A model generated the notes under the pieces. That model did no database searches. It was not told where the DNA came from and worked only from the letters and a program-made list of their open reading frames with translations. From Elusimicrobiota bacterium (GTDB lineage: Bacteria; CAYTYR01; UBA6262), in the NCBI GenBank assembly GCA_003153935.1, contig PMCA01000007.1, forward strand, positions 1 to 11,599: 11,599 nt of DNA, given 5' to 3'. This document shows, piece after piece, positions 1-11,599 of the stretch. The position numbers and the translations under genes are program-made. Numbering within the stretch: position 1 is the stretch's first letter; each line of letters opens with the position of its first letter.

Positions 1-52
1 TGTAAAGACGAATTATAAGGTCAGCCGAAAGTCTGTATGTAAACATTGTTAT

Positions 53-631
53 TCATGCGTCTCCCACCTTGATCTCAAAAGGCGCCAGCAATGCTAAAAC
101 TTCCGGATATGAAAAACGCGCATTTTTCAGCCGGTTATGCGTAGGATCAATATAATAATGCCGCGCTCCGGTAAAATTCGCTTTTTCCAGGATAGTATTG
201 TGGAACTTGCTGCCGGCGAAGTCCGAACCGGAAAAATCAGCCTCTCTAAGGTCGGTATTCAGGAAGTCTGTCTTATGAATAACGCATTCAATGAACCGGC
301 TGCCTTTCATCTTAAGACCGTGAAAATCACACATTTCGATCTTACATTTCTTAAACTGCCAATCCAACAGTAACGGATTGACGGCCTCACAGACCACGCC
401 GATCAGTTTACAGCCATCCAGCGTAACACATCGAAAACTGCAGCCGTCAACGTTCACATTCGCAAAATTGCAGTCAAGGAATGTGCAGTCAATAAAAACC
501 GAAGCCGTCAGCCGGCACTCGCTCAGGTCACAGCTCTTGAATACGCATCCTGTAAAAGTCTTACTCGCCAGGTCGTGGTCAAAAGCAGAAATGTCCTTAA
601 ATGTTTGGTCTTCAAATGAGCTTTCTTTCAA
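53..631 (-). CDS. Pentapeptide-repeat protein, Qnr/MfpA-like fold
   Basis: A 192-residue protein built almost wholly of five-residue repeats with Phe or Leu at the centre (F26, F31, L36, L41, F46, F51, F56, F66, L71, L76, then F113 to F153). Such repeats fold into a right-handed quadrilateral beta-helix. A break near residues 79-98 (NPLLLDW) and a C-terminal tail with IDP (161-163), ARF (171-173) and a PEVLALL helix match the roughly 190-residue Qnr/MfpA/YjbI-like group. Known members of that group mimic DNA and bind gyrase, but many have no known role, and quinolone protection cannot be read from the sequence. It is rich in cysteine, with C29, C34, C39 and C49, C54 spaced five apart. The start is TTG, with AAAGGAG about 9 nt upstream; no in-frame ATG fits better. 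It lies 92 nt after rnr, apparently with its own promoter. Presumably cytoplasmic, as no signal peptide is seen. Confidence 0.85.
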   Translation of the reverse strand: MKESSFEDQTFKDISAFDHDLASKTFTGCVFKSCDLSECRLTASVFIDCTFLDCNFANVNVDGCSFRCVTLDGCKLIGVVCEAVNPLLLDWQFKKCKIEMCDFHGLKMKGSRFIECVIHKTDFLNTDLREADFSGSDFAGSKFHNTILEKANFTGARHYYIDPTHNRLKNARFSYPEVLALLAPFEIKVGDA

Positions 632-666
632 TGTGCCTATCTCCTTTGAGGCTGTGAATAAACTTT

Positions 667-707
667 ATTATAGTTTAGTATCGTGTCCCCGGATTCTCCC
701 GGATTCT
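667..707 (-). promoter_or_regulatory. Candidate activator-type promoter for the pentapeptide gene
   Basis: On the minus strand a perfect TATAAT (667-672) lies 35 nt upstream of the TTG start. The hexamer 17 nt further up (690-695) reads AATCCG, a poor -35 box. Two perfect tandem copies of a 10-bp word (plus strand CCCGGATTCT at 688-697 and 698-707) cover exactly that position. Two repeats one helical turn apart over a weak -35 box suggest an activator or repressor site. This is inference from spacing alone. Confidence 0.45.
688..707. repeat. Perfect tandem 10-bp direct repeat (2 copies)
   Basis: CCCGGATTCT occurs twice in direct succession in the 92-nt gap between rnr and the pentapeptide gene. 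Both copies are identical. They sit just upstream of a TATAAT box, which makes a regulatory role plausible. A two-copy slippage product is the alternative. Confidence 0.7.
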
Positions 708-723
708 ATGTTAGATTGATTAT

Positions 724-2694
724 TTAATGTCTTCTTTTATTCCGGCCGGGATGGGGATGTTTGAGTTTGGTCATACGCCACTCGGTAGGGAGTTGGGTTT
801 TATTACCGAGCGAAAAGTCTATCTTCCCCTCTATCGGATCCACTTTGTCTAATTTAACCTTCAGTTTGTCGCCAAGTTTAAGATTGGTTTCGCGCACAAA
901 TCCTTCGGCGCCGCTATCACCGACACGGACGAAGGAACCCCTCTCCATCACTGAAACCACGATGCCGTCCATAACTTCCCCTATCTTCGTCTTAAGCAAT
1001 TCCGCGCGCATCAGGTCCACCGACTTATTCTCACACTCCGCCGCGGCGCGTTCACGCTCCGAGCAATGCACCCCGACTTCTTCCAGCGGCAGCGCGCCAT
1101 GATCCTCTTTTTTATGCAGCAGGAGAGCTTTAATGGCCCGGTGGGCTGTGAGATCCGGGTATCTCCTGATGGGCGAGGTAAAATGAGCGTAAGCCAGAGC
1201 AGCAATGCCGAAATGCCCTTCTGACACAGGCGAGTAAATCGCTTGCTGCATACTGCGCACCATCATTGAATTGATGATATCCTCGAGTGGATGCCCCTGC
1301 GCCTGGCGCAGGATATCCTGCAAAGCTTTGTGAGTGTTCCGGCCGGTAAGATGTCCGGCTGATAATCCCAGCTCACCGAGCGTTTTGGCTAGGTCTTTTA
1401 TCTTATCAGGGTCCGGCACGTCATGCCGCCGGTGCAGGAACGGAGCATGTGCGGCTATCAGTTCGGTGGCTATGGCTTCGTTGGCTAACAGCATGAACTC
1501 CTCAATAAGCCGATGGCTCGCCAGTCTCGGGCGGAGAACCACACTTAAAGGTTTGCCGTTAGCGTCAACTTCAACTTTATATTCCGGGAGGTTGAAATCC
1601 AGTGCGCCTCTCTCCACCCGGCGCTGATACAATGTCTCCGCCAGCTGGCCCATGCGCGCTATGGCTACGGCCGCTGCACCAGGTACATCAGCTACTTGAC
1701 CTCCGTCCAGCAGAACCTGGACTTCTTCATAAGTGAATCTCCGGCAGGAACGAATAACCGTATTAGCCATGCGGCGCCTGACAACATTCCCTTCGGCATT
1801 AATATCCATAAAGACCGATACTGTCAGCCGTTCCTGGAAAGGCACCAGACTGCATAAATTGTTTGATAATGAAGGCGGCAGCATCGGTACCACCCGGTCG
1901 GGCAGGTAAACGCTGGTCCCGCGCTGGTAAGCTTCTTTATCCAGGGGGGAACCTACTTTCACATAATGACCCACATCGGCAATGTGCACCCCTAACCGGA
2001 CCATATTCATATCCAGCCGTTCCAGTGAGACCGCGTCGTCAAAATCTTTAGCGTCTGCGCCGTCGATAGTCACTATCGGCAGATGGAATAATTCTTCCCG
2101 TCCGTGCCAGTCCGCCGGTGCGAGTTTATCAGGCAATGAGTTGCTTTGGGTAAGTACATCTTTGGGAAAGGTTTCACTGATGCCACGCGACCGCAGCAGC
2201 ATGGTAATGCGAGTTTTAACGTTATCAGCCTGGCCCAGGATCTCGGTTACCACCCCGGCAGCGCCGATCCTCTCTGTGGGCCAACGCTTAATTTCCAATA
2301 CCGTTACCGCTCCGGCTACGGGAGCTATCTTATGCAGGAAACCGGTCACTTCAGTGGCTGGCGTATCTCCTTTTTCGGAAGACACTATCCAGCCATGCGG
2401 AAGTTTTTTCAGGATGCCGATAATATTTTTGTGCGCGTGTTCAAGCACCTCAATTATCTCGCCGGCGAAACGTCCGTCCGCTTCACGGTGGACCTTGGCG
2501 GATACCCGGTCGCCGTCCATGGCCAGGGCCAGCCCCCGCCCATGAAGGAAAACGTCGGCGCCGTCTTTGGTCTCCGCCAGCAGGAACGCGAAACGCCCGT
2601 GATGCTGGATCACGCCCTTGACGATAGTTTCCTTGCTTTTATCAGAGCGTTTCCTTAAATGATCTCTATTATGATCTCTAAATTGTCTTTTCAT
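724..2694 (-). CDS. rnr: Ribonuclease R (RNB-family 3'-5' exoribonuclease)
   Basis: Processive 3'-5' exoribonuclease that degrades structured RNA, including rRNA and mRNA. Cold-shock-type domains span about residues 24-160, with the typical FVFL-type pattern as DVFLHGRGLALAMDGDRV. The RNB catalytic domain spans about 200-525. Its metal-binding motif IDGADAKDFDDAV gives acidic residues D211, D217, D219 and D220. GTSVYLPDRV (259-268), SNNLCSL and HFTSPIRRYPDL (504-515) are also family signatures. An S1 domain covers about 572-629, followed by a basic tail ending RNKRRH. At 656 residues it is shorter than E. coli RNase R (813): the N-terminal helix-turn-helix is absent, and the S1 domain lacks the loop of about 25 residues that normally carries a DYYxFD motif. 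The ATG overlaps the stop of the acetyltransferase gene (ATGA), so translation is probably coupled. The ribosome site is weak (GAGG about 12 nt upstream), which fits coupling. Confidence 0.96.
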   Translation of the reverse strand: MKRQFRDHNRDHLRKRSDKSKETIVKGVIQHHGRFAFLLAETKDGADVFLHGRGLALAMDGDRVSAKVHREADGRFAGEIIEVLEHAHKNIIGILKKLPHGWIVSSEKGDTPATEVTGFLHKIAPVAGAVTVLEIKRWPTERIGAAGVVTEILGQADNVKTRITMLLRSRGISETFPKDVLTQSNSLPDKLAPADWHGREELFHLPIVTIDGADAKDFDDAVSLERLDMNMVRLGVHIADVGHYVKVGSPLDKEAYQRGTSVYLPDRVVPMLPPSLSNNLCSLVPFQERLTVSVFMDINAEGNVVRRRMANTVIRSCRRFTYEEVQVLLDGGQVADVPGAAAVAIARMGQLAETLYQRRVERGALDFNLPEYKVEVDANGKPLSVVLRPRLASHRLIEEFMLLANEAIATELIAAHAPFLHRRHDVPDPDKIKDLAKTLGELGLSAGHLTGRNTHKALQDILRQAQGHPLEDIINSMMVRSMQQAIYSPVSEGHFGIAALAYAHFTSPIRRYPDLTAHRAIKALLLHKKEDHGALPLEEVGVHCSERERAAAECENKSVDLMRAELLKTKIGEVMDGIVVSVMERGSFVRVGDSGAEGFVRETNLKLGDKLKVKLDKVDPIEGKIDFSLGNKTQLPTEWRMTKLKHPHPGRNKRRH

Positions 2695-3206
2695 ATAAAT
2701 GTCGCCTCGATGTAATCTACTGGTTCTTCGCTGTTAGTATATTTCCATTTATCGACTTTTCTGATATCAGTTATCTTCATTTTCTTCTGGATGATCTGGC
2801 TGAAGTTGTTTATGACCCTGGCGTGCAGGGAAATATTGTGGAAGCCCCTCTTGTCTAATTCCAGCTGCAGAGCCTCCATTATTGAGGAGAATCCGTTCTG
2901 TCCCCTGTATTCGGGCAGAATGGCTATGGTCTCAATATAATATCTTGAAGCATCCCCATGCATTAACGGGTCATCATCCTTCAATTCTATGACCGCGTTA
3001 ATATGAGGAATAGCCAGAATAAAGCCAACGGTTTTAGCGTTATCCTTTAACAAAATACAGACATTATTCCTATTCTTAAGCATCCCGCGATAATACTCTT
3101 TTTCGTTACCATAATTCCAGGCCGTCGGAAAAGCGCCGCTATTGATCGCGCTTATACCATCTACGATACTTTCATCAAAATTATGCACAACCTCTGTTTT
3201 GAGCAT
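2691..3206 (-). CDS. GNAT-family N-acetyltransferase
   Basis: A 171-residue protein with the GNAT fold pattern. A central strand, GFILAIPHI (61-69), leads to motif A, ETIAILPEYRGQNGFSSIM (92-110), where acetyl-CoA pyrophosphate normally binds the loop after the strand. A helix (EALQLELDKRG) and a further strand, NISLHARVINN (124-134), follow. The pyrophosphate loop departs from the usual R-x-x-G-x-G/A: here it is R101-G-Q-N-G-F, so both canonical glycine positions are replaced. The substrate cannot be predicted. The gene starts 11 nt after the phosphatase stop with a good ribosome site (GGGGAG). It shares four bases with rnr, so the two proteins are made from one message. In E. coli a GNAT enzyme acetylates RNase R and alters its stability. 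Whether this one acts on RNase R is only a suggestion from adjacency. Confidence 0.85.
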   Translation of the reverse strand: MLKTEVVHNFDESIVDGISAINSGAFPTAWNYGNEKEYYRGMLKNRNNVCILLKDNAKTVGFILAIPHINAVIELKDDDPLMHGDASRYYIETIAILPEYRGQNGFSSIMEALQLELDKRGFHNISLHARVINNFSQIIQKKMKITDIRKVDKWKYTNSEEPVDYIEATFI

Positions 3207-3217
3207 TATCTCCCCTG

Positions 3218-3829
3218 CTATGGAATATATTCGAATTCTGGTTCGGGCGCTAAATCGACTTTATTTTGGAGTGCTTTTGGGTCCACTTTTCTGAGATATC
3301 TCCGGAGATTAAAGAAGATCTCATGGAACCCGAAGCGGGAAAGTTCCCCCTGCACTTTTTCTTTCGGCCAGCCCTGCACGGTCATCCGGTAAACGCCGAC
3401 CATCGTCCCGGTGCGGTCGGCGCCGTGCTGGCAGTGAACGAAGAAAGGGGCAAAATCCTTATCAGAAACAGCTTTCAGAAAGGCGATCGCTTCATTATCT
3501 CCGACGTTGTTGGCTTCCATGGGTATATATAAATAATAGAATCCCAGGCCTTTAATGAATTTAGCGTCGGGATAGGAAGCCCGGAGGTTTATTATGGTCT
3601 TGATGCCCATCTTCTTCAACTGCGCGAAACCTTCCGCGGTCGGCTGTTCTCCCCGGTAAAGCTCATCAGAGACTTGGGCAAAATTACCCAACCCGGGTAT
3701 ATTGTTTACCGGCGTGGCATAGGTATATTCGTCTGGTTGCGGGTCAGCGCAAACCGGTCGGCTATAAACAGCAAATACCAGCAAGAATAGGATGGCTGTT
3801 GATCTAATAAAGTGTTTATTCAGGACCAT
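3218..3829 (-). CDS. Exported TpbA-like dual-specificity/tyrosine phosphatase
   Basis: A 203-residue protein with a signal peptide (hydrophobic 11-22, likely cut after VCA at 26-28), placing it in the periplasm. The cysteine-phosphatase signature C-x5-R is intact as HCQHGADRTG (132-141), with nucleophile C133, phosphate-binding R139 and T140. The segments LYRGEQPTAEGF (58-68) and GIKTIINLRASYPDAKF (75-91) match bacterial dual-specificity phosphatases. So does the stretch after the loop, VYRMTVQGW (146-154). The whole resembles Pseudomonas TpbA, which dephosphorylates a membrane diguanylate cyclase and thereby controls biofilm; that role is not shown here. D111 in the NNVGDNEA loop is a candidate general acid. 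It lies 45 nt after the TPR gene and 11 nt before the GNAT gene, in the same direction, so probably one operon. A GGAGG directly abuts the ATG, unusually close; CTG codon 3 has better spacing, but ATG is kept. Confidence 0.88.
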   Translation of the reverse strand: MVLNKHFIRSTAILFLLVFAVYSRPVCADPQPDEYTYATPVNNIPGLGNFAQVSDELYRGEQPTAEGFAQLKKMGIKTIINLRASYPDAKFIKGLGFYYLYIPMEANNVGDNEAIAFLKAVSDKDFAPFFVHCQHGADRTGTMVGVYRMTVQGWPKEKVQGELSRFGFHEIFFNLRRYLRKVDPKALQNKVDLAPEPEFEYIP

Positions 3830-3874
3830 CCTCCGAATCTTTTAGCCAGAGTTTCTTATTCTTGGCAGTATATA

Positions 3875-4579
3875 TTATGGATTTTTCAGTGCTTTTTCCG
3901 CTCGATCCGCTCCGGCGTCATTATTACTGCTTTTATACTTTTCCTTGGCTGTTGCCAGCATTTTATTGGCCTGCTCCTTTTGACCTAAAAGACCATACGT
4001 GACCCCGATATTATAATAAACATCCGGGCTATTGGGCTTTAACTCCAGGGCTTTTTTATAGGCAGTAAGAGCCTGCTCGTTATCATTCATGTTACGATAA
4101 GTATTCCCCATATTATTGTAGGCCTTAAAATTATCCGATTTGAGGTCAATTGAGGTTTTATAAGCTTCTATAGCTTTGGCATAACTACCCATGGCGTTAT
4201 GGCAATTACCGATGCTGTTATAGGCCTGGTAATCTTTTGGCTTTACTGCCAGGACCTTTTTGTAGGCCTCCTCAGCTTCCGCATACCGTCCGAGGGAATA
4301 ATAAGTATTTCCCAAATTGAAATAAGCGTCAACGTTTACGATCTTATCATTAATGATCTTTTTTAGGGCCGCAGCTTTTTGGCTGGTCTCTATCCTGGGA
4401 GCAACTTCTGGAGGTTTTACCGGCTTGGTAATTGGGACCGTAGGTATATTAACAATAGGGCTTATAATTGCCGGAACTTCTTTGATATTAGCCGGCTTTT
4501 TCTGAAGATTATATATTAAATAAATTGTATTAACTAATACGAGCAGGACAAAGATACCGATAACTATTTTATATTTCAT
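3875..4579 (-). CDS. Membrane-anchored TPR protein
   Basis: A 234-residue protein with one N-terminal membrane segment (about 4-23) and a Pro/Ile/Val-rich linker (29-62). Four tandem tetratricopeptide repeats follow, at about 82-115, 116-149, 150-183 and 184-217. Each has the family pattern, for example AYFNLGNTYYSLGRYAEAEEAYKKVL and AYNNMGNTYRNMNDNEQALTAYKKAL. TPRs are protein-protein scaffolds, here probably facing the periplasm because the anchor is N-terminal with a short basic cytoplasmic end. The segment lacks a lipobox or a clear cleavage site, so anchoring is more likely than secretion. It is the first gene of the unit holding the phosphatase, GNAT and rnr. The ribosome site is modest (AGGGAT about 7 nt upstream). 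The partner is unknown; the TpbA-like phosphatase encoded next to it is the nearest candidate by compartment. Confidence 0.85.
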   Translation of the reverse strand: MKYKIVIGIFVLLVLVNTIYLIYNLQKKPANIKEVPAIISPIVNIPTVPITKPVKPPEVAPRIETSQKAAALKKIINDKIVNVDAYFNLGNTYYSLGRYAEAEEAYKKVLAVKPKDYQAYNSIGNCHNAMGSYAKAIEAYKTSIDLKSDNFKAYNNMGNTYRNMNDNEQALTAYKKALELKPNSPDVYYNIGVTYGLLGQKEQANKMLATAKEKYKSSNNDAGADRAEKALKNP

Positions 4580-4610
4580 AACCGATCCCTGGATTTAATA
4601 ATCTGGTTAT

Positions 4611-4639
4611 ATTTTATCATAATTAGCCCTCATAAACAA
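4611..4639 (-). promoter_or_regulatory. Candidate sigma-70 promoter of the TPR-phosphatase-GNAT-rnr unit
   Basis: On the minus strand TTGTTT (4634-4639) is followed by exactly 17 nt and TAAAAT (4611-4616, five of six consensus bases), 31 nt upstream of the TPR start codon. The -35 box is weak, matching only TTG. The region is AT-rich and lies immediately after the typA terminator, where a promoter is needed. Confidence 0.4.
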
Positions 4640-4669
4640 TGAAAACCACCGTATTTTGGTGGTTTTCAT
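4639..4669 (-). terminator. Intrinsic terminator of typA (perfect 12-bp stem)
   Basis: ATGAAAACCACC (4639-4650) and GGTGGTTTTCAT (4658-4669) are perfect reverse complements around a 7-nt loop. The 3' arm in the direction of typA transcription contains TTTT and is followed by a T-rich TGTTTATG. This lies 27 nt beyond the typA stop. The stem is symmetric, so it could also block readthrough from the other strand, although no plus-strand gene is seen. Confidence 0.85.
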
Positions 4670-4695
4670 GGGAATATTCAGTTGCGAACTAATAA

Positions 4696-6534
4696 TTATG
4701 CTGCTTGCCTGGCGGCGCGTTCTTTTGATTTGCGTTCATTCTCGTCGAGATACTGCTTGCGTAGGCGGATACTTTTAGGGGTGATCTCCACTAGTTCGTT
4801 GTCTTCCACGAACTCCAGGGCAAATTCCAGGGTCATTTCCCGGGGCGGGATGAGCCGGATAGCTTCATCCGCGTTGGAGGAGCGCATATTAGTCAGCTTT
4901 TTCTCCCGGATAACGTTTACAATGAGGTCATCGCCTTTATTATTCACTCCTATGATCATGCCTTCGTAGAGGTCGTCTCCCGGTTTGATGAAGATCTCGC
5001 CTCTTTCCTGCAGGTACCATAAGGCGTAAGCAATGGCCCGGCCGCCGCTCATGGATACCAGTACTCCGGCCTGGCGGTGGACGATATCACCTTTATATTT
5101 CTGGTACTGGTAAAAGTTCTGGTACATGATGCCGGTGCCGCGGGTCATCATCATCAGGTCGCTCCTGAACCCGAGCAGACCCCTGGTCGGGATAAGGAAG
5201 TTCATGCGCACCGTGCCTATTGTCGTGATCCCCATATTTTTCATCAGGGCTTTCCGGCTGCCCAGCGCCTGTATAACTGAGCCCTGGTATCCCTCGTCAA
5301 CCTCTATCATCACTTCTTCTACTGGCTCGAGAACCTCGCCATCAATCTCCCGCATGATGACCTTGGGAGAGGAAACTTCCATTTCATAGCCTTCGCGACG
5401 CATGGTTTCTATCAGGATGGACAGGTGCAGTTCGCCCCGTCCGGCGACCTCATATTTCTCGCTGCCCGGCACGGGCTTGATCTTAATGCCGACATTGGTC
5501 AGGACCTCATGCTCGAGTCTCTCCTTGATATGTCTTGAGGTAAGGAAACGTCCGCCGTCTTTGCCTGCCAGCGGGCTGGTATTATGCGAGAAGACCATGG
5601 ATATGGTCGGCTCGTCTATCTTGATGGTCGGCAGTGCCTCCGGATTGTCGATGCTCGCCAGCGTCTCGCCGACGTTTACATCCTCCATACCGGCGATCAT
5701 GATAATGTCACCGGCTTCAGCGTTATCCACTTCCACCTTTTTTAAACCTTTATATTTTAGTATCCTGGTCACTTTGGCCTGCCTGACAGAGCCGTCTATT
5801 TTTACCAGTGCCATCTGCTCACCGGTTTTGATCTTGCCGTGGACGATGCGGCCGATGGAAATCTGGCCGATATACGGGTCATAATCCAGCATGGTGATGA
5901 GCATCTGGAACGGTTTATCCGGGTCAGCTACCGGCGGCAGGACGCGGTGTAAAATTGTATCGAGCAGGGGTTTCATATCCTTACCTTCGTCTTCCATGTC
6001 CAGCTTGGCTATGCCGTCTTTGCCGGAAGCGAACACTATCGGGAAGTCCATCTGCTCATCCGTGGCGTTCAATTCGTCGAACAGGTCAAAGGTCATATCG
6101 GAGACTTCATGGGGACGGGCGTTGGGCCGGTCGATCTTGTTGACGACCAGTATGGGCTTGAGATGCAGTTCCAGGGCCTTCTTGGAGACGAACTTGGTCT
6201 GCGGCATGGGCCCTTCCTGCGCATCGACCAGCAGAAGAACGCCATCTACCATTTTCAGGATGCGCTCTACTTCACTGCCGAAATCCGCGTGGCCGGGAGT
6301 GTCCACGATATTGAACTGGACCCCTTTATAAATAAAGGAAGCGTTCTTGGAAAATATGGTTATACCGCGCTCTTTTTCGAGCGGGTTGGAATCCATGATC
6401 GTGGACTCTCCTTCTTTAAAATCATAGGCCCCGGTTTGTTTTAACAGGGCGTCCACGAGAGTGGTTTTGCCATGGTCCACGTGGGCGATGATGGCGACGT
6501 TCCTGACGTCTTTGCGGCGTTTCTGGTTAGTCAT
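4696..6534 (-). CDS. typA: Translational GTPase TypA/BipA
   Basis: Ribosome-associated GTPase related to EF-G and LepA. It assists 50S assembly and growth under stress such as cold. All GTP-binding motifs are intact: G1 AHVDHGKTT (17-25), G2 RGITI (56-60, with T59), G3 DTPGH (78-82), G4 NKID (132-135) and G5 SGKDG (170-174). Domain II, the EF-G-like domain III and domain V follow, then the TypA-specific C-terminal domain with GLLGFRSDLMMMTRGTGIM and QYQKYKGDI. The length of 612 residues is normal for the family. ATG was chosen because AAGGAG sits 5 nt upstream. The gene is monocistronic on sequence evidence: it has its own promoter (6587-6615), a terminator hairpin inside its short leader, and a 12-bp hairpin after its stop. 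Confidence 0.97.
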   Translation of the reverse strand: MTNQKRRKDVRNVAIIAHVDHGKTTLVDALLKQTGAYDFKEGESTIMDSNPLEKERGITIFSKNASFIYKGVQFNIVDTPGHADFGSEVERILKMVDGVLLLVDAQEGPMPQTKFVSKKALELHLKPILVVNKIDRPNARPHEVSDMTFDLFDELNATDEQMDFPIVFASGKDGIAKLDMEDEGKDMKPLLDTILHRVLPPVADPDKPFQMLITMLDYDPYIGQISIGRIVHGKIKTGEQMALVKIDGSVRQAKVTRILKYKGLKKVEVDNAEAGDIIMIAGMEDVNVGETLASIDNPEALPTIKIDEPTISMVFSHNTSPLAGKDGGRFLTSRHIKERLEHEVLTNVGIKIKPVPGSEKYEVAGRGELHLSILIETMRREGYEMEVSSPKVIMREIDGEVLEPVEEVMIEVDEGYQGSVIQALGSRKALMKNMGITTIGTVRMNFLIPTRGLLGFRSDLMMMTRGTGIMYQNFYQYQKYKGDIVHRQAGVLVSMSGGRAIAYALWYLQERGEIFIKPGDDLYEGMIIGVNNKGDDLIVNVIREKKLTNMRSSNADEAIRLIPPREMTLEFALEFVEDNELVEITPKSIRLRKQYLDENERKSKERAARQAA

Positions 6535-6550
6535 TAAAGCTCCTTGGCAT

Positions 6551-6578
6551 AAAAAAAATGGCTGGGTTTCCCCAACCA
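6551..6578 (-). terminator. Intrinsic terminator of the usher-like operon, also in the typA leader
   Basis: On the minus strand an 8-bp stem TGGTTGGG/CCCAGCCA (one U-G wobble), closed by a GAAA tetraloop, is followed by eight Ts. This is a textbook rho-independent terminator, ending 62-89 nt after the stop of the 946-residue gene. The T-run ends only 16 nt before the typA ATG, and the predicted typA start point (about 6580) is just before the stem. The same hairpin would therefore be the very 5' end of typA mRNA. Confidence 0.92.
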
Positions 6579-6586
6579 GTAACTTA

Positions 6587-6615
6587 ATAGTACCTGAATT
6601 TCAGCGCTTTGTCAA
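6587..6615 (-). promoter_or_regulatory. Sigma-70 promoter of typA
   Basis: On the minus strand a perfect TTGACA (6610-6615), a 17-nt spacer and TACTAT (6587-6592) form a strong housekeeping promoter. It lies 25 nt after the usher-like gene's stop. Initiation is expected near 6580. The spacer contains a small palindrome, CTGAAATTCAG (6594-6604), which could bind a regulator but may be chance. Confidence 0.85.
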
Positions 6616-6639
6616 CCTATATTGTCATTTTGCGACCGG

Positions 6640-9480
6640 TTACTGGATCTCATTCACCGGTATGGAATAGTTGATGCTTTGTCCTTCTTCCAGGCTGAAA
6701 TTGTAAAAGATCGGTACCAGGGGCATGTATTTTTCAGGCAGGGTTGCCAGGTCCAGGGTAATTTTGTGATCGCCTGCCGGCAGCCTGCGGCTGAATACTC
6801 CGGAAGAATCAGTAAAGACCTTGATGCCGTTCTCCAGGACTAAAGTTACTCCCGGCACTCCCTTATCATTAAGGCCAAACTTTTTATCCCCGTCGATATC
6901 CACGAATACCGCGCCATGGATCTCAGTACGGGTTGACACCGCGAAATCCACTTCCGTTTTACCATTGTGAACTATGGCCGCTTCCTGCATCGCCGGGCCG
7001 GTTACAATATAGCCTTCGGGAATATTCGCGGTATTTACCCTGACTGAAACTTTCTTGGCTTTTACATTAAAGAACCGATAAGAACCGTATTCATTGGTGC
7101 GTTGGACCCGGTTCCTGCCCACCCGCACTTCGACATTCGCTATGCCCGGCTCCTCCGGCTGTTTTATACCGTCCATATTCAGGTCCTTAAAGACATAGCC
7201 TTTAATAGTTCCTACCGGGTCAACATGCATATAAGTGTCAAACAGGTAATTTACGGTGACGGCGGCTTCCGTCTCCACTCTCCTGATGGAGGGAGACGTT
7301 TCGGTGCGAATATCCCTGACCCTGGCATTGAGGCCGATATTAAAGAAAGACGCCGGGGCGTAGGCAATTTCGCCGTAACCTTCCAGATAGTCTTCGCCGA
7401 CCAGGAAACTGAACGGGGAGTCCGTATTATTTTCATCGCGGTAGGTAAAGCGTAGGGTCTGATGCAGGGAAGTTCCATAGATCTGGCTGCTCCACTCTAT
7501 GCCGGTTTGCAGAACTTCCGGCTTGGCCGGTTTTTCGGGATTGGCTAACGGGGTTACGTTATTGATCTCTTTTTCGACGAAACAATAAACGGTCGGGAAC
7601 AGGCTGATGCGCGTGCCCCCCTTGATCTTATGACTATTGTAGTCTAAGGACGGAGTGTTGATATACCGGTCCCGCACGAGATTATAATTCAGGTAGACAT
7701 TGATCCGGCGAGCCGTGGGGAAATTAAAGTGCAAGCCAAATCCCGCGTCCTGGGTTATGGTGGGGAAATTCTTGCCCAGGTCATTCCGGTAATTATAGTC
7801 CCCCTGTGCCTCCAGAAGGGAAAACGGTCTCCATAAAGCTCCCAGATCCACTTCCTTGTTCCAACGGCCCGGCAAAGCGGGATTAGGGAAAAGAGTGTCG
7901 GTATAGACGTCAGACTGGCTGGAAAAACTTAAATTTTCGCAGGGCCGGTAATGGATGTTAACCAAGGCTCCTCTTTGTCCGGCACGCCAGTCCTTGCCGC
8001 TGATCGCCTGGAAATTCCTGGATATATCCCTTAATTCGGTCAGGACCTGCAAGTACGTCTGGGTATAATCTACCCTCAGGGTGGAGGCGTAGTTCTCGGT
8101 GTCATAAGCTATTTCCGGCAGCAGTTTCAATTTATTGAATATGTACAGCGCGCTGGCGTCATAAGAATATTTGTTTTGGTCAGGAGTCCGGTCGCGGCCC
8201 CCTCCCTTGTAAGCGGACAGGGTGTAATTCTGGTTTTGATAAGGCCGGTATCCTAAGCTGAGTCCGCTATAATATATTTGCGGTTTTTCATTGGCGATGT
8301 CCGGCGGCACAAAGCCGCCAAACCTGAGACCCAGTTCTTCTCCCCAGAAGGCGCGCACGGCCAGCTTATTTTCTATTACCGGGGAAGATATTTGCACCCC
8401 GCGCAGATCCCCCTTACTGAAAGCGAGATCCGTACCCGCCGGCTGGAAATCAATGGCCTGCACGTTCACATGCTTCAATGACCCGATCCTGCCGTCCAGC
8501 AAACTCAGGGAAGCATAATCTACTTCCGTCTTGCCCGGTACGGAATTCAGGGAAAAAGAAAAACCAAAGTCCCCGTAAGGCGTGGACAGTGGATTGGCCG
8601 ACTCCAGGATATGCTGAAAAGCATGAAATCTGGAATTAGGCGTGAGATGAGGCAAGGGATACCTGGTCTCATCATAATTAGCGATAATGGAGTAACGGAC
8701 CTGCAGATCCTTGGCTTTCTCTTCAATGAACCTGGAATTTGCTTCTGCATTGAGGCCGGCCTGCTTGGCCAAAATAACCCTGAATTCCAGCGTCCAGCGC
8801 TGCTGGGCATCCCACACATATAAGTACGTTGGGCCGATATTCTTGCCGGTAACGTAAAGCACGTCTCCGTGTTGCTCGACATTTATGATCCCCGGCTGGG
8901 TATTCAGGAACCTTCTTATGGTTGTATCTTTGACCACGAGGATCTCATTTTTCTCGATCTCCAGGTTAATGGCCGGTTTCTGCGTAATTTTATCCAGCAT
9001 CAGTATTTTAGGGATCTTGGCAGTTTTTGGTGCAGGAATGACCGGTTTGGCTGCAGTGGTTTTTTCCGGCGGGGTGATGGCTTCTTTATCGTTGAGCCCC
9101 ATAGACTCCAGCTGTTGCTTAATAAAGGCGTCTCGGGATAGACCGGCTTTGGTGGAGCTGGGAGGCAATCCGTTGGCGGTGGTGCTTTCTTTCGTCGTGC
9201 CTAATCGTTTATTAATTAATTTGGAATATTTTAAGGCAGTTTTGTCATTAGGATTAAGTATTAATACCTTGTTAAATTGCTCCTGGGCCTCATCCAGGAG
9301 GCCTTTTTTGTATAACGATATCCCTAGATCCAGAATTATTTGATTTATTTCGTCGGAGGAAGATTGGTCGGAGGAAAAAGCGGTATCGGAACGAAGATAG
9401 CCGGAATCTTCGTCAGCGGCATAGGACGATAAGGTCGTGCAGATCAAAGCAGCGCATAATAAATACCGGGCAAAACGCAT
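6640..9480 (-). CDS. Usher/secretin-like outer-membrane protein with TPR, pilus N-domain, barrel and SdrD/Cna-B-like domains
   Basis: A 946-residue exported protein. Reading the domains in order: signal peptide 1-21 (ends SSYA-A); TPR-like helices 44-92 (LGISLYKKGLLDEAQEQF); a Pro/Lys/Thr-rich linker 100-168; a domain at 171-237 that matches the pilus-formation/secretin N-domain (IEKNEILVVKDTTIRRF, VTGKNIGPTYLYVWD). A long region at about 300-755 has alternating aromatic and polar strands (for example INVYLNYNLVRDRY, FFNIGLNARVRD), typical of an outer-membrane beta-barrel. Two SdrD/Cna-B-like beta-sandwiches close the protein, at 757-848 and 852-945, each with an Asp-rich loop that may bind calcium (D766, N768, D770; D861, D863, D865). 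The order of N-domain, barrel and two C-terminal sandwiches parallels fimbrial ushers without obvious sequence identity to them. It follows the chaperone gene by 10 nt and ends at a terminator. A GAGG abuts the ATG. Most likely the export pore of the cassette; a plain barrel adhesin is the alternative. Confidence 0.8.
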   Translation of the reverse strand: MRFARYLLCAALICTTLSSYAADEDSGYLRSDTAFSSDQSSSDEINQIILDLGISLYKKGLLDEAQEQFNKVLILNPNDKTALKYSKLINKRLGTTKESTTANGLPPSSTKAGLSRDAFIKQQLESMGLNDKEAITPPEKTTAAKPVIPAPKTAKIPKILMLDKITQKPAINLEIEKNEILVVKDTTIRRFLNTQPGIINVEQHGDVLYVTGKNIGPTYLYVWDAQQRWTLEFRVILAKQAGLNAEANSRFIEEKAKDLQVRYSIIANYDETRYPLPHLTPNSRFHAFQHILESANPLSTPYGDFGFSFSLNSVPGKTEVDYASLSLLDGRIGSLKHVNVQAIDFQPAGTDLAFSKGDLRGVQISSPVIENKLAVRAFWGEELGLRFGGFVPPDIANEKPQIYYSGLSLGYRPYQNQNYTLSAYKGGGRDRTPDQNKYSYDASALYIFNKLKLLPEIAYDTENYASTLRVDYTQTYLQVLTELRDISRNFQAISGKDWRAGQRGALVNIHYRPCENLSFSSQSDVYTDTLFPNPALPGRWNKEVDLGALWRPFSLLEAQGDYNYRNDLGKNFPTITQDAGFGLHFNFPTARRINVYLNYNLVRDRYINTPSLDYNSHKIKGGTRISLFPTVYCFVEKEINNVTPLANPEKPAKPEVLQTGIEWSSQIYGTSLHQTLRFTYRDENNTDSPFSFLVGEDYLEGYGEIAYAPASFFNIGLNARVRDIRTETSPSIRRVETEAAVTVNYLFDTYMHVDPVGTIKGYVFKDLNMDGIKQPEEPGIANVEVRVGRNRVQRTNEYGSYRFFNVKAKKVSVRVNTANIPEGYIVTGPAMQEAAIVHNGKTEVDFAVSTRTEIHGAVFVDIDGDKKFGLNDKGVPGVTLVLENGIKVFTDSSGVFSRRLPAGDHKITLDLATLPEKYMPLVPIFYNFSLEEGQSINYSIPVNEIQ

Positions 9481-9490
9481 CCTCAGGTTT

Positions 9491-10360
9491 TTACCTCAAT
9501 TCGCCTACACTGAGTACTTCACCGGAGGAGCCTATTTCCACTTCTGTCTCCTTGGTAATAACGGAATCAGCAGCCCATTCTTGCTCATGCATAGATTCCC
9601 CTATGTCCATGGTAAGAATAGCGTTATAGGTTCCTTTAGGCAGAGGTTCTTTCCAGGTCCCGCTCATCCTGGCAGTTTCCTTGGGGAAAGTATAAACCTT
9701 GTCTAACGTCGCGCGAACGAAAATTACTCCCTTGTTATCCATCAAGTGAAAAGTTCCCTTGGTTATAATATCCGAATTGCCCGTATTTTTGATGTCTAAG
9801 GCAACTTGCAGGCCTTTGCCTTTCTCCGGTTTCACCAGCGAAAAATTACTTATCTCAGCTGTCCGGGCCGTCTTATCTTCAGTATCAACGTAGAAAATGG
9901 TCCCGATCCGTACCACCAGTCCTAAGGCCACGTTTCCCTGCTGCATGGGGCTGGCCATCTTACTTTCAAAAAACATTACGGCAAAATGACCGCCGGTAGA
10001 ATCCTGAGGCATCTTTACCGTATAATATATTTCCTGCGTTCCCTCAGCGGGAATATCCACCTCTGACTGTGAGAAACTGATCCAGCTGGCGCAAGACAGC
10101 GGTTGCGTCCCCATCGCGAAAAATACCTTGGTGCCGTCATGGGCGTCACTGTATTTCCAATCCTGGACGTATATCTTCACCTTCACAGCGGTCGCGTCCG
10201 GGTTCCTGACCGTAATTTTACCGCTGCCGGCCTGCCCGGGCTGGATGGTTTGGAATATTTTGGGTGGATCGATCTGTAAAATTGCCGCTTGGGTAAATTG
10301 CGTTGCCGCGACCAGGAAGACGACCAGACAGCTCAGTATCCACTTTGTTTTATGCACCAT
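9491..10360 (-). CDS. PapD-like periplasmic chaperone (fimbrial-chaperone type)
   Basis: A 289-residue exported protein with a signal peptide (1-25, cut near FTQAA). The first Ig-like domain (about 27-157) starts with LQIDPPKIFQTIQPGQ and GKITVRNPDATAVKVKIYVQDW. It continues with SQSEVDIPAEGTQEIYYTV, which resembles the P-pilus chaperone and DUF916-like pattern of a short strand, a proline pair and an NPxxxxV strand. A second beta-sandwich (about 165-255) has LDIKNTGNSDI, as in CARDB/fn3-like domains. It probably binds and protects beta-strand-rich subunits in the periplasm. It is encoded 31 nt after the repeat protein and 10 nt before the usher-like protein, the order expected of a subunit-chaperone-usher operon. 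The ribosome site is GGGGTG close to the ATG. It is longer than classical PapD (about 220-240 residues), and no adhesin-specific motif is visible. Confidence 0.75.
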   Translation of the reverse strand: MVHKTKWILSCLVVFLVAATQFTQAAILQIDPPKIFQTIQPGQAGSGKITVRNPDATAVKVKIYVQDWKYSDAHDGTKVFFAMGTQPLSCASWISFSQSEVDIPAEGTQEIYYTVKMPQDSTGGHFAVMFFESKMASPMQQGNVALGLVVRIGTIFYVDTEDKTARTAEISNFSLVKPEKGKGLQVALDIKNTGNSDIITKGTFHLMDNKGVIFVRATLDKVYTFPKETARMSGTWKEPLPKGTYNAILTMDIGESMHEQEWAADSVITKETEVEIGSSGEVLSVGELR

Positions 10361-10391
10361 ATCACCCCATATATTATTTTTATCTTAGCGC

Positions 10392-11599
10392 TTAGAGCTC
10401 GGAGATCGTATACACTATTTGTCCCACGTAATTGCCGGCCGGGACGCTGGCATCGGCGGAAAACTCATAGATGACCTTAAATTTGTCCGGTGAACCGTCC
10501 TTGTCGGAAATGAATAAAACCATATCGCCGGTTTTTACTTCGGTCGGCTTTGGAAACTTCAGTAACCCTTTGGTGCCGGTATCTTCCAGGCGCAGGGTAA
10601 AATAGCGCGGCGGAACACTGGCGCCGCCATTGCTGGACAGCTGCACCGGTAACTGCTGGCTTACCTGGTATTGCCGCCCCACGTTACTCTTTATTTCTAC
10701 GAGTATCTCGGAACTGCGCGGTCTTTGGCCCAATTGCACGTCCTGGAACTGTATCCCGCTGGGTTGCTGGGGGGTCACGATGAGATCGAATATGCGCCCG
10801 ATGGTTATCTCCATGGGGAAGGTGACCAGTAATTTTTGGCCGCCCTGGGTGCTGAGGAAATACTGGACCTCGGTCCGGTAGGTGCCGGCATTTTGTTTTT
10901 CCGGGTCAACCAGGGTGTAGGTAATGAGGAAATGATCGGCCTCCCCTCCCGGGCTGGAAATATATAATGATTGCTCGCCTTTAGCCAGAGGTATGCTGCC
11001 TGACGTCCCGCTGCCGGTTTTATAACCGCGGGCTCTTACTGTGAGAGCTCCTGGGGTGAGTTGCTTCCCCTCCGTTGATTCCGGCAGATTGGGCAGGACT
11101 TGGGAAATTTCAAACTGTTCCTTTAAAGGTGTTCTTATGTCTACGGAAAGATCAAAAGCAGGCGCTTCCGCCTTACCGGAGTTTAACACAATGGTTTTGG
11201 TCCTTGAAGGTGTGGTTATGTCGATGGCTGTACCGGGAGATTCAATGTCAGCGGTAATATTGAGGATGAACTGTTGACCCGACTGGGACGCGCCCGAAGA
11301 TTCTAACGTAAATACCAGCTTGCCCTGATAGTAACCGGGAACGACGGTATCCGAATTTTTTAGTACATATACCAAGGTGAAGGCCGCGGCTGTCCCGCGG
11401 TTCTCTGATGTGTAGATAACTGTTCTATCCATAGAAACCGGGGATTCATGCTCGGCGTTCAGGGTTCCGGCGATATTTCCGGCCCTGATAGCATAGACAG
11501 TTAAGCTGCCGGCAGGCAATATAGATCCCTGGTTGCTGGTTAAGGGTTCAACGAGTGTTTGTACGAGCTGGTAGGGTTGGCTTACGTCCGAGGTAATGG
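10392..11599 (-). CDS. Repeat-domain beta-rich surface protein, 5' end outside window
   Basis: At least 402 residues, open to the window's right edge. The TTG at 11517-11519 is only an internal leucine: upstream codons continue in frame (reading QPYQLVQTLVEPLTSNQGS) with no stop, so the true start lies beyond 11599. The visible part is about 150-residue repeats, two whole and one partial. Each ends in an AGxYxGxxxYT-like hairpin (GYYQGKLVFTLES; AGTYRTEVQYFLST; AGNYVGQIVYTISEL). This is preceded by a YISS/FISD-type strand and a YQVSQxLP-like segment. No transmembrane anchor or sorting signal is seen at the C-terminus, which ends on the last hairpin (SEL). Possibly the exported subunit or adhesin of the downstream chaperone and usher-like genes. 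No described family is recognised with confidence. Confidence 0.7.
   Translation of the reverse strand, partial: ITSDVSQPYQLVQTLVEPLTSNQGSILPAGSLTVYAIRAGNIAGTLNAEHESPVSMDRTVIYTSENRGTAAAFTLVYVLKNSDTVVPGYYQGKLVFTLESSGASQSGQQFILNITADIESPGTAIDITTPSRTKTIVLNSGKAEAPAFDLSVDIRTPLKEQFEISQVLPNLPESTEGKQLTPGALTVRARGYKTGSGTSGSIPLAKGEQSLYISSPGGEADHFLITYTLVDPEKQNAGTYRTEVQYFLSTQGGQKLLVTFPMEITIGRIFDLIVTPQQPSGIQFQDVQLGQRPRSSEILVEIKSNVGRQYQVSQQLPVQLSSNGGASVPPRYFTLRLEDTGTKGLLKFPKPTEVKTGDMVLFISDKDGSPDKFKVIYEFSADASVPAGNYVGQIVYTISEL
10395..11599 (-). repeat. Protein-level tandem repeats of about 150 codons
   Basis: Repeat 3 covers about 10395-10853, repeat 2 about 10854-11300 and the end of repeat 1 about 11301-11599. 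They are recognisable only at protein level: EQFEISQVLP against RQYQVSQQLP, PGALTVRA against PAGSLTVYA, SLYISSPGGEADHFLITYTL against VLFISDKDGSPDKFKVIYEF, and the closing AGTY/AGNY hairpin. Divergence suggests old duplication rather than recent slippage. Confidence 0.7.

Follow-up and report, generated by a model that had tools for sequence, protein, structure and literature searches.

Chaperone-usher pili are usually seen as mainly proteobacterial and are defined by their PF00577 ushers. A contig of an Elusimicrobiota bacterium carries a gene set that a preliminary description had put forward as a possible non-canonical chaperone-usher-type surface-fibre cassette. The question raised by this locus is whether these genes indeed belong to that pathway. 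The best reading is that they do: the operon is taken to be a divergent chaperone-usher system (probability roughly 0.75), as had been proposed, and this is largely supported by the homology of the chaperone and by the co-occurrence of the genes. Judging from sequence, the gene set very probably builds surface protein fibres in the chaperone-usher manner. The operon represents a new variant within the pathway, with a predicted usher, in a broad branch unlabelled by public databases, and its surprising part is a possibly plugless pore.

Operon organization and genome context

The window (the whole stretch of DNA analysed, 11,599 nucleotides) comprises bases 1-11599 of an 82-kb contig from a genome of 1.75 Mb. 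Its family also contains two named relatives, 'Elusimicrobia bacterium UBA6262' and the isolate STB_115. The features of the operon are as follows.

6559..6578, minus strand: candidate intrinsic terminator directly after the pore gene (8-bp stem and T run; pattern match only)
6640..9480, minus strand: 946-aa predicted outer-membrane usher-like pore protein (ORF, Pfam matches, full-length relatives in the sister genomes and in locus L062, E-value: 1.8e-24)
6643..7212, minus strand: two C-terminal beta-sandwich domains at the usher CTD1/CTD2 position, residues 757-946 (SdrD_B and CarboxypepD_reg)
7225..8628, minus strand: predicted beta-barrel region, approximately residues 285-752 (amphipathic-strand peaks; no detectable plug after the RG motif)
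8398-8403, minus strand: RG motif, pore residues 360-361 (landmark ahead of the plug position)
8776..8970, minus strand: T2SS-T3SS_pil_N, a secretin/pilus-type N-domain, pore residues 171-235 (E-value: 7.2e-5; 22.9 bits against a cut-off of 23)
9244..9330, minus strand: TPR unit, pore residues 51-79 (TPR_2, E-value: 5.6e-4, under the Pfam cut-off)
9491..10360, minus strand: 289-aa periplasmic chaperone with two Ig-like domains (profile homology to PF00345-positive archaic chaperone-usher chaperones; tree)
10392..11599 in the window and to 11750 on the contig, minus strand: 452-aa secreted protein with three tandem pilin-like domains (ORF, subunit profile)
Contig 11957-12535, just outside the window, minus strand: 192-aa pilin gene (ORF on the contig)

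The three consecutive genes of the preliminary description are thus the minus-strand ORFs 6640-9480, 9491-10360 and 10392 to past the window end, and the subunit-chaperone-usher order that it recognized is seen both in the window and in relatives. These three genes are separated by gaps of 31 nt (452-aa gene to chaperone) and 10 nt (chaperone to pore). A 2-base N (assembly) gap lies inside the 452-aa gene just past the window end (contig 11600-11601); the sister-genome versions of this gene are approximately 9 residues longer at that site. A 14-bp hairpin with a T-rich tail follows the pilin gene, ahead of the 452-aa gene (contig 11848-11816, minus strand), a strong terminator candidate by pattern match only, and its position resembles that in operons making more pilin than chaperone.

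Each sister genome contains two Omp85 genes, so the UBA6262 host family is very probably diderm. No Omp85 gene was found in the window's own incomplete genome.

The chaperone

In Pfam, the chaperone ORF gives sub-threshold Ig-type matches only (WxLIP_PGBD, E-value: 9e-4) and no match to PapD/PF00345. Single-sequence comparison with canonical chaperones is also weak (best E-value: 7e-4). Although invisible in such single-protein searches, the PapD-like chaperone claimed from the sequence is established by profiles and hhalign. A 26-row family profile matches the archaic chaperones of L115-L120, all PF00345-positive and from loci with PF00577 matches, with E-values of 7.5e-34 to 2e-15 as computed on a small local set. 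One member of this profile, L085, comes from a genome with a canonical system as well; profiles A1 and A3, made earlier and without L085, agree with it but score lower. L115 is also matched by a 5-row profile assembled when no canonical chaperone had yet been encountered (E-value: 1e-12). Alignment of the family with 13 canonical chaperones in hhalign gives 99.6% over 248 columns. EcpB (9e-6) and FimC (0.02) match the family profile more weakly. By these sequence comparisons, the two-Ig chaperone is homologous to canonical chaperone-usher chaperones.

In a maximum-likelihood tree, which is indicative in view of its long branches, ten canonical chaperones lie on one side of a 91/91 branch (90% of bootstraps) and all 49 new-family chaperones fall outside this canonical clade. 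The window chaperone groups with those of L062 and L078 (88/87). The new family has its own signature, consisting of S..W in domain 1 (24/26 and 25/26) and an arginine in the G1 strand (20/26). It also has N-x-G in domain 2, which is common to canonical chaperones. Archaic and alternative chaperones are defined by a conserved F1 arginine (CsuC/EcpB Arg89; PMC4654587). In the new family this arginine is absent: its column holds small residues and the adjacent columns are not Arg. The EcpB anchor residues R148 and Y169 do not align with conserved columns of the family. As for the classical R8/K112 pair, a lysine of the window protein aligns with R8 and the G1 arginine is present in 20 of the 26 rows, but the register is shifted. 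A single-sequence AlphaFold model of the chaperone was unusable (pLDDT 45), and a PDB fold search with it returned transglutaminases and WxLIP at TM <0.3, which was disregarded.

The two-Ig protein could instead belong to a diderm WxL/WxLIP surface complex, as a scaffold part that stays bound to small beta-domain proteins while the barrel serves as anchor or porin. WxLIP proteins (DUF916/DUF3324, from the WxL loci of Gram-positive bacteria) have the same two-Ig layout, and the nearest solved relative by profile is EfmWxLIP1 (PDB 9i25, full-length match, E-value: 1.4e-10). Several chaperone-family members also show weak WxLIP_PGBD matches, and members in L061, L067 and L084 have no pore gene nearby. 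WxLIP proteins bind WxL domains and connect cell wall and host (PMC10599100); however, no WxL-domain match was found among the operon proteins searched, and the window's pore gene adjoins the chaperone gene. The bit scores of the best three archaic chaperone domains (107, 80 and 68) exceed the WxLIP score in the PDB search (44). Moreover, the pore proteins of several relatives, including one from a second operon of the window's genome, contain a chaperone-usher plug. A WxL/WxLIP complex is judged improbable, and a chaperone of the chaperone-usher type is preferred.

The subunits

A subunit profile was built from 38 upstream proteins of 150-200 aa chosen by position and size. In the 452-aa protein it finds three matches, at residues 18-153, 163-302 and 315-449 (E-values: 2e-6, 3e-6 and 3e-3; together 1e-17). 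The three tandem matches indicate that this protein, described earlier as a repeated beta-domain protein, consists of three fused pilin-like domains. An archaic subunit is matched by the same profile (E-value: 2e-11), and the N-termini of new and archaic subunits look alike (VNVSATI and VNINATV). A C-terminal G-x-Y beta-strand pattern is present in 22/38 subunits and 6/7 archaic subunits, compared with 26/366 other ORFs, and several of these 26 are themselves additional subunits. In another locus (L086:9687-16817), five similar pilin-like genes encoding proteins of 180-181 aa surround one chaperone-pore pair and may form a pilin cassette.

The predicted pore barrel and the plug

In known ushers the barrel has 24 strands and is gated by a plug; these proteins also have an N-domain, to which complexes of chaperone and subunit are recruited, and two C-terminal domains (PMC8410936). 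PapC without its plug is a very large open channel (PMC10418385). The 946-aa protein contains, in order, a signal peptide, TPR, T2SS-T3SS_pil_N, a predicted barrel and two C-terminal beta-sandwiches. It has no Pfam match to Usher (PF00577), PapC/PapC_N or secretin models, in agreement with the earlier remark that it lacks obvious usher sequence. The barrel is predicted from sequence because structure prediction gave nothing usable (AlphaFold with a 3-sequence alignment, pLDDT 32). By a crude count, the barrel region has 18 amphipathic-strand peaks; E. coli ushers have 20-23, and soluble controls matched in length have 9.

The preliminary description expected a wide pore or plug, and the plug half of this expectation did not hold: neither a canonical nor an extended plug profile detects a plug in the window's pore protein or in most other relatives. 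The canonical profile, built from canonical ushers only, does match the pore proteins of L017 (3e-7), L016 (5e-7) and L124 (1e-5) at the expected place (best shuffle: 0.8), and those of L056 and L128 likewise. The L016 protein belongs to a second, diverged subunit-chaperone-usher operon in the window's own genome (contig C27, L016:2248-6748), whose usher has a recognizable plug. Aligned with archaic ushers, the plugged relatives reach 98.5% in hhalign (E-value: 3.6e-15, 161 columns) and reversed controls give nothing. Together, the plug-profile matches and this alignment show that the kinship of the plugged pore proteins with ushers is real.

From the RG motif to CTD1, six of the plugless proteins span 379-397 aa (397 aa in the window protein), whereas the span reaches 505 and 524 aa in two relatives with a plug. 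The post-motif barrel segment of the window's branch is thus approximately 110-125 aa shorter, about the size of one plug. Homology of the plugless barrel to plugged or canonical barrels was not detected (hhalign against the plugged set, E-value: 0.07; reversed control: 0.09), so the usher role is assigned from gene order, C-terminal domains and size. The ties of the plugless barrel to ushers are the gene order, the full-length similarity among plugless members (window protein to L062, E-value: 1.8e-24), the shared CTD pair and the usher-like strand-peak count. The window barrel may have come from an usher by loss of the plug, or another kind of barrel may have taken the usher's position.

These results bear on a second alternative, in which the locus is an ordinary archaic chaperone-usher operon that has drifted in sequence, with the same plug-gated usher grown too divergent for the models. 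The homologous chaperone and subunits and the existence of relatives with true plugs would fit such drift. This alternative appears very unlikely, however, given that the 91/91 branch sets all 49 chaperones of the new family apart from every canonical one, including the archaic. The RG-to-CTD1 stretch is also too short when set against the plugged relatives, the extended plug profile finds nothing, the N-terminal domain of the pore comes from another family, and barrel homology does not rise above the reversed control.

N-terminal and C-terminal domains of the pore protein

The C-terminal sandwiches are matched by SdrD_B (residues 759-828, E-value: 6e-11) and CarboxypepD_reg (residues 872-908, E-value: 4.5e-6). 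The pair is common to the plugged relative L017 (E-value: 2e-16), and the similarity of these domains extends also to SdrD and NOMO. An SdrD/MSCRAMM adhesin was rejected as a reading of the C-terminus, as the match covers the CTD position only and nearly all relatives carry such domains there. At the other end, the N-terminal helices (the TPR part) are the better portion of the poor AlphaFold model. T2SS-T3SS_pil_N exceeds the Pfam cut-off in the relatives L062 and L064 and is therefore a recurring part; other relatives have copper-amine-oxidase-type or Ig domains in its place. Pfam gives matches for both the pilus/secretin N-domain, just under the cut-off, and the two C-terminal beta-sandwiches that had been noticed from the sequence. 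The combination of TPR, secretin-type N-domain and SdrD/Cna-B-like modules is present as described, but the last of these occupy the usher CTD1/CTD2 places and the same pair occurs in plugged relatives.

That pil_N marks a secretin-like or type IV pilus-related exporter, with the neighbouring genes encoding its cargo and a periplasmic helper, is highly improbable: the domain is found in the window protein, L062 and L064, but the window pore has no secretin domain in Pfam and matches only by its N-terminal pil_N, its size is that of a monomeric barrel with C-terminal sandwiches, and most relatives swap pil_N for other domains while keeping chaperone, subunits and C-terminus.

Distribution across genomes

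The same operon is present in the sister genomes G001 and G003, and a scan of genome contigs found the two sister genomes only. With changed N-terminal domains, the operon set is also found in many other bacterial families, and this conservation indicates that the gene set is not due to chance. For example, G031, the genome carrying L017, is related to the window's genome at the domain level only. Had homologues of the genes never occurred together, the preliminary description would have been contradicted; instead, chaperone and pore genes adjoin in 27 of the 40 genomes in which the surrounding genes were inspected and scored. In these, an ORF of pore size (at least 650 aa) lies just downstream on the same strand, compared with 37/361 background ORFs (10%), which rules out chance adjacency. 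The downstream ORF matches the A8 pore profile in 25 of the 27 genomes, a count that is partly circular, since many of these proteins went into building the profile; no such circularity affects the count of 27. Two of the 40 genomes (the window's own and G031) supplied profile seeds, and G358, one of the counted locus sets, contains a canonical system as well.

In the sample of 386 genomes, the five-row chaperone profile matches 52, some without a pore gene, and PF00577 matches 9, of which 7 are above the Pfam cut-off. There is no PF00577 match anywhere in the window's genome. The chaperone-family proteins without a pore gene nearby (L061, L067 and L084) may represent a monoderm or CPR version; in L067, from a 0.79-Mb genome, a PamT-like gene lies beside the chaperone family.

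The operon also occurs on plasmids of cultured Deinococcus, where most annotations of subunit, chaperone and pore read hypothetical protein. The D. deserti annotation lists the chaperone as a FimB/Mfa2 subunit and the pore as a carboxypeptidase-regulatory-like protein. The profiles match the Deinococcus chaperones and pores strongly and the subunits weakly.

Comparison with known systems

Archaic chaperone-usher systems (sigma, Csu type; PF00345/PF00577) share with the operon the subunit-chaperone-usher order and two C-terminal pore sandwiches; the chaperones are homologous along their entire length, and the beta-domain subunits are related and likewise end in G-x-Y beta-strands. In contrast to these systems, the window proteins have no PF00577 or PF00345 match and no archaic Arg89, the N-terminal domain of the pore is TPR plus T2SS-T3SS_pil_N instead of the PapC_N type, and no plug is detectable in the window's branch. 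The classical (FimCD/PapDC) and alternative (EcpBC, CfaAC) systems follow the same overall logic. Their chaperones are less similar to the new family than archaic ones and fall with these in the canonical clade; the differences are as for archaic systems, only more distant.

NCBIfam describes a 'Pam pilus system' of CPR bacteria (NF058579 PamT, NF058581 pilin). A 458-aa homologue of the three-domain protein resembles the Pam pilin (E-value: 1.6e-6, 28 bits against a cut-off of 55), but the similarity to this system is under the cut-off throughout. No relevant description of a plugless usher, of a DUF916-linked usher or of the Pam pilus was found in the open-access literature. The view that the combination is not a described system holds in so far as this is a new variant, but it looks unfamiliar in part because Pfam and NCBIfam both lack coverage of this branch.

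Proposed model

The proposed model for fibre assembly is as follows. The subunits, namely the 192-aa pilin and the 452-aa three-domain protein, would be exported by Sec. The two-Ig chaperone would hold them in the periplasm by lending its G1 strand, and chaperone-subunit complexes would then go to the 946-aa outer-membrane pore. Strand exchange would polymerize the subunits through the barrel into a surface fibre, in which the three-domain protein may be the tip, adhesin or base. Both donor-strand exchange and fibre formation are proposed from homology. In the pore, TPR and the secretin-type N-domain would take the role of the usher NTD and the two C-terminal beta-sandwiches would act as CTD1 and CTD2, so that the barrel would do the usher's job. 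With no internal plug, gating must happen otherwise, possibly through the N-domain, the CTDs or subunit occupancy; the secretin-type N-domain and TPR are candidates for closing the pore.

If the pores are truly plugless, the accepted plug-gated cycle is not the sole usher cycle, and gating becomes a testable question in cultured Deinococcus. A broader suggestion, offered tentatively and with slightly less than even odds, is that the operon represents a fourth, unlabelled chaperone-usher superfamily that extends across many non-proteobacterial lineages, where it would be more common than the canonical systems. Most of its pores would be plugless and have exchangeable N-terminal modules (secretin-type, TPR or Ig), and WxLIP might be a monoderm offshoot.

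Neighbouring genes

Elsewhere in the window, positions 3218-3829 encode a protein phosphatase of dual-specificity type that is probably exported (PTP-NADK/Y_phosphatase2 matches), and a TPR protein gene (3875-4579) adjoins it; neither has a link to the pilus operon. Outside the window, contig 16588-19998 encodes a long protein in which KDKYVLI-type repeats alternate with highly charged, coiled-coil-like stretches.
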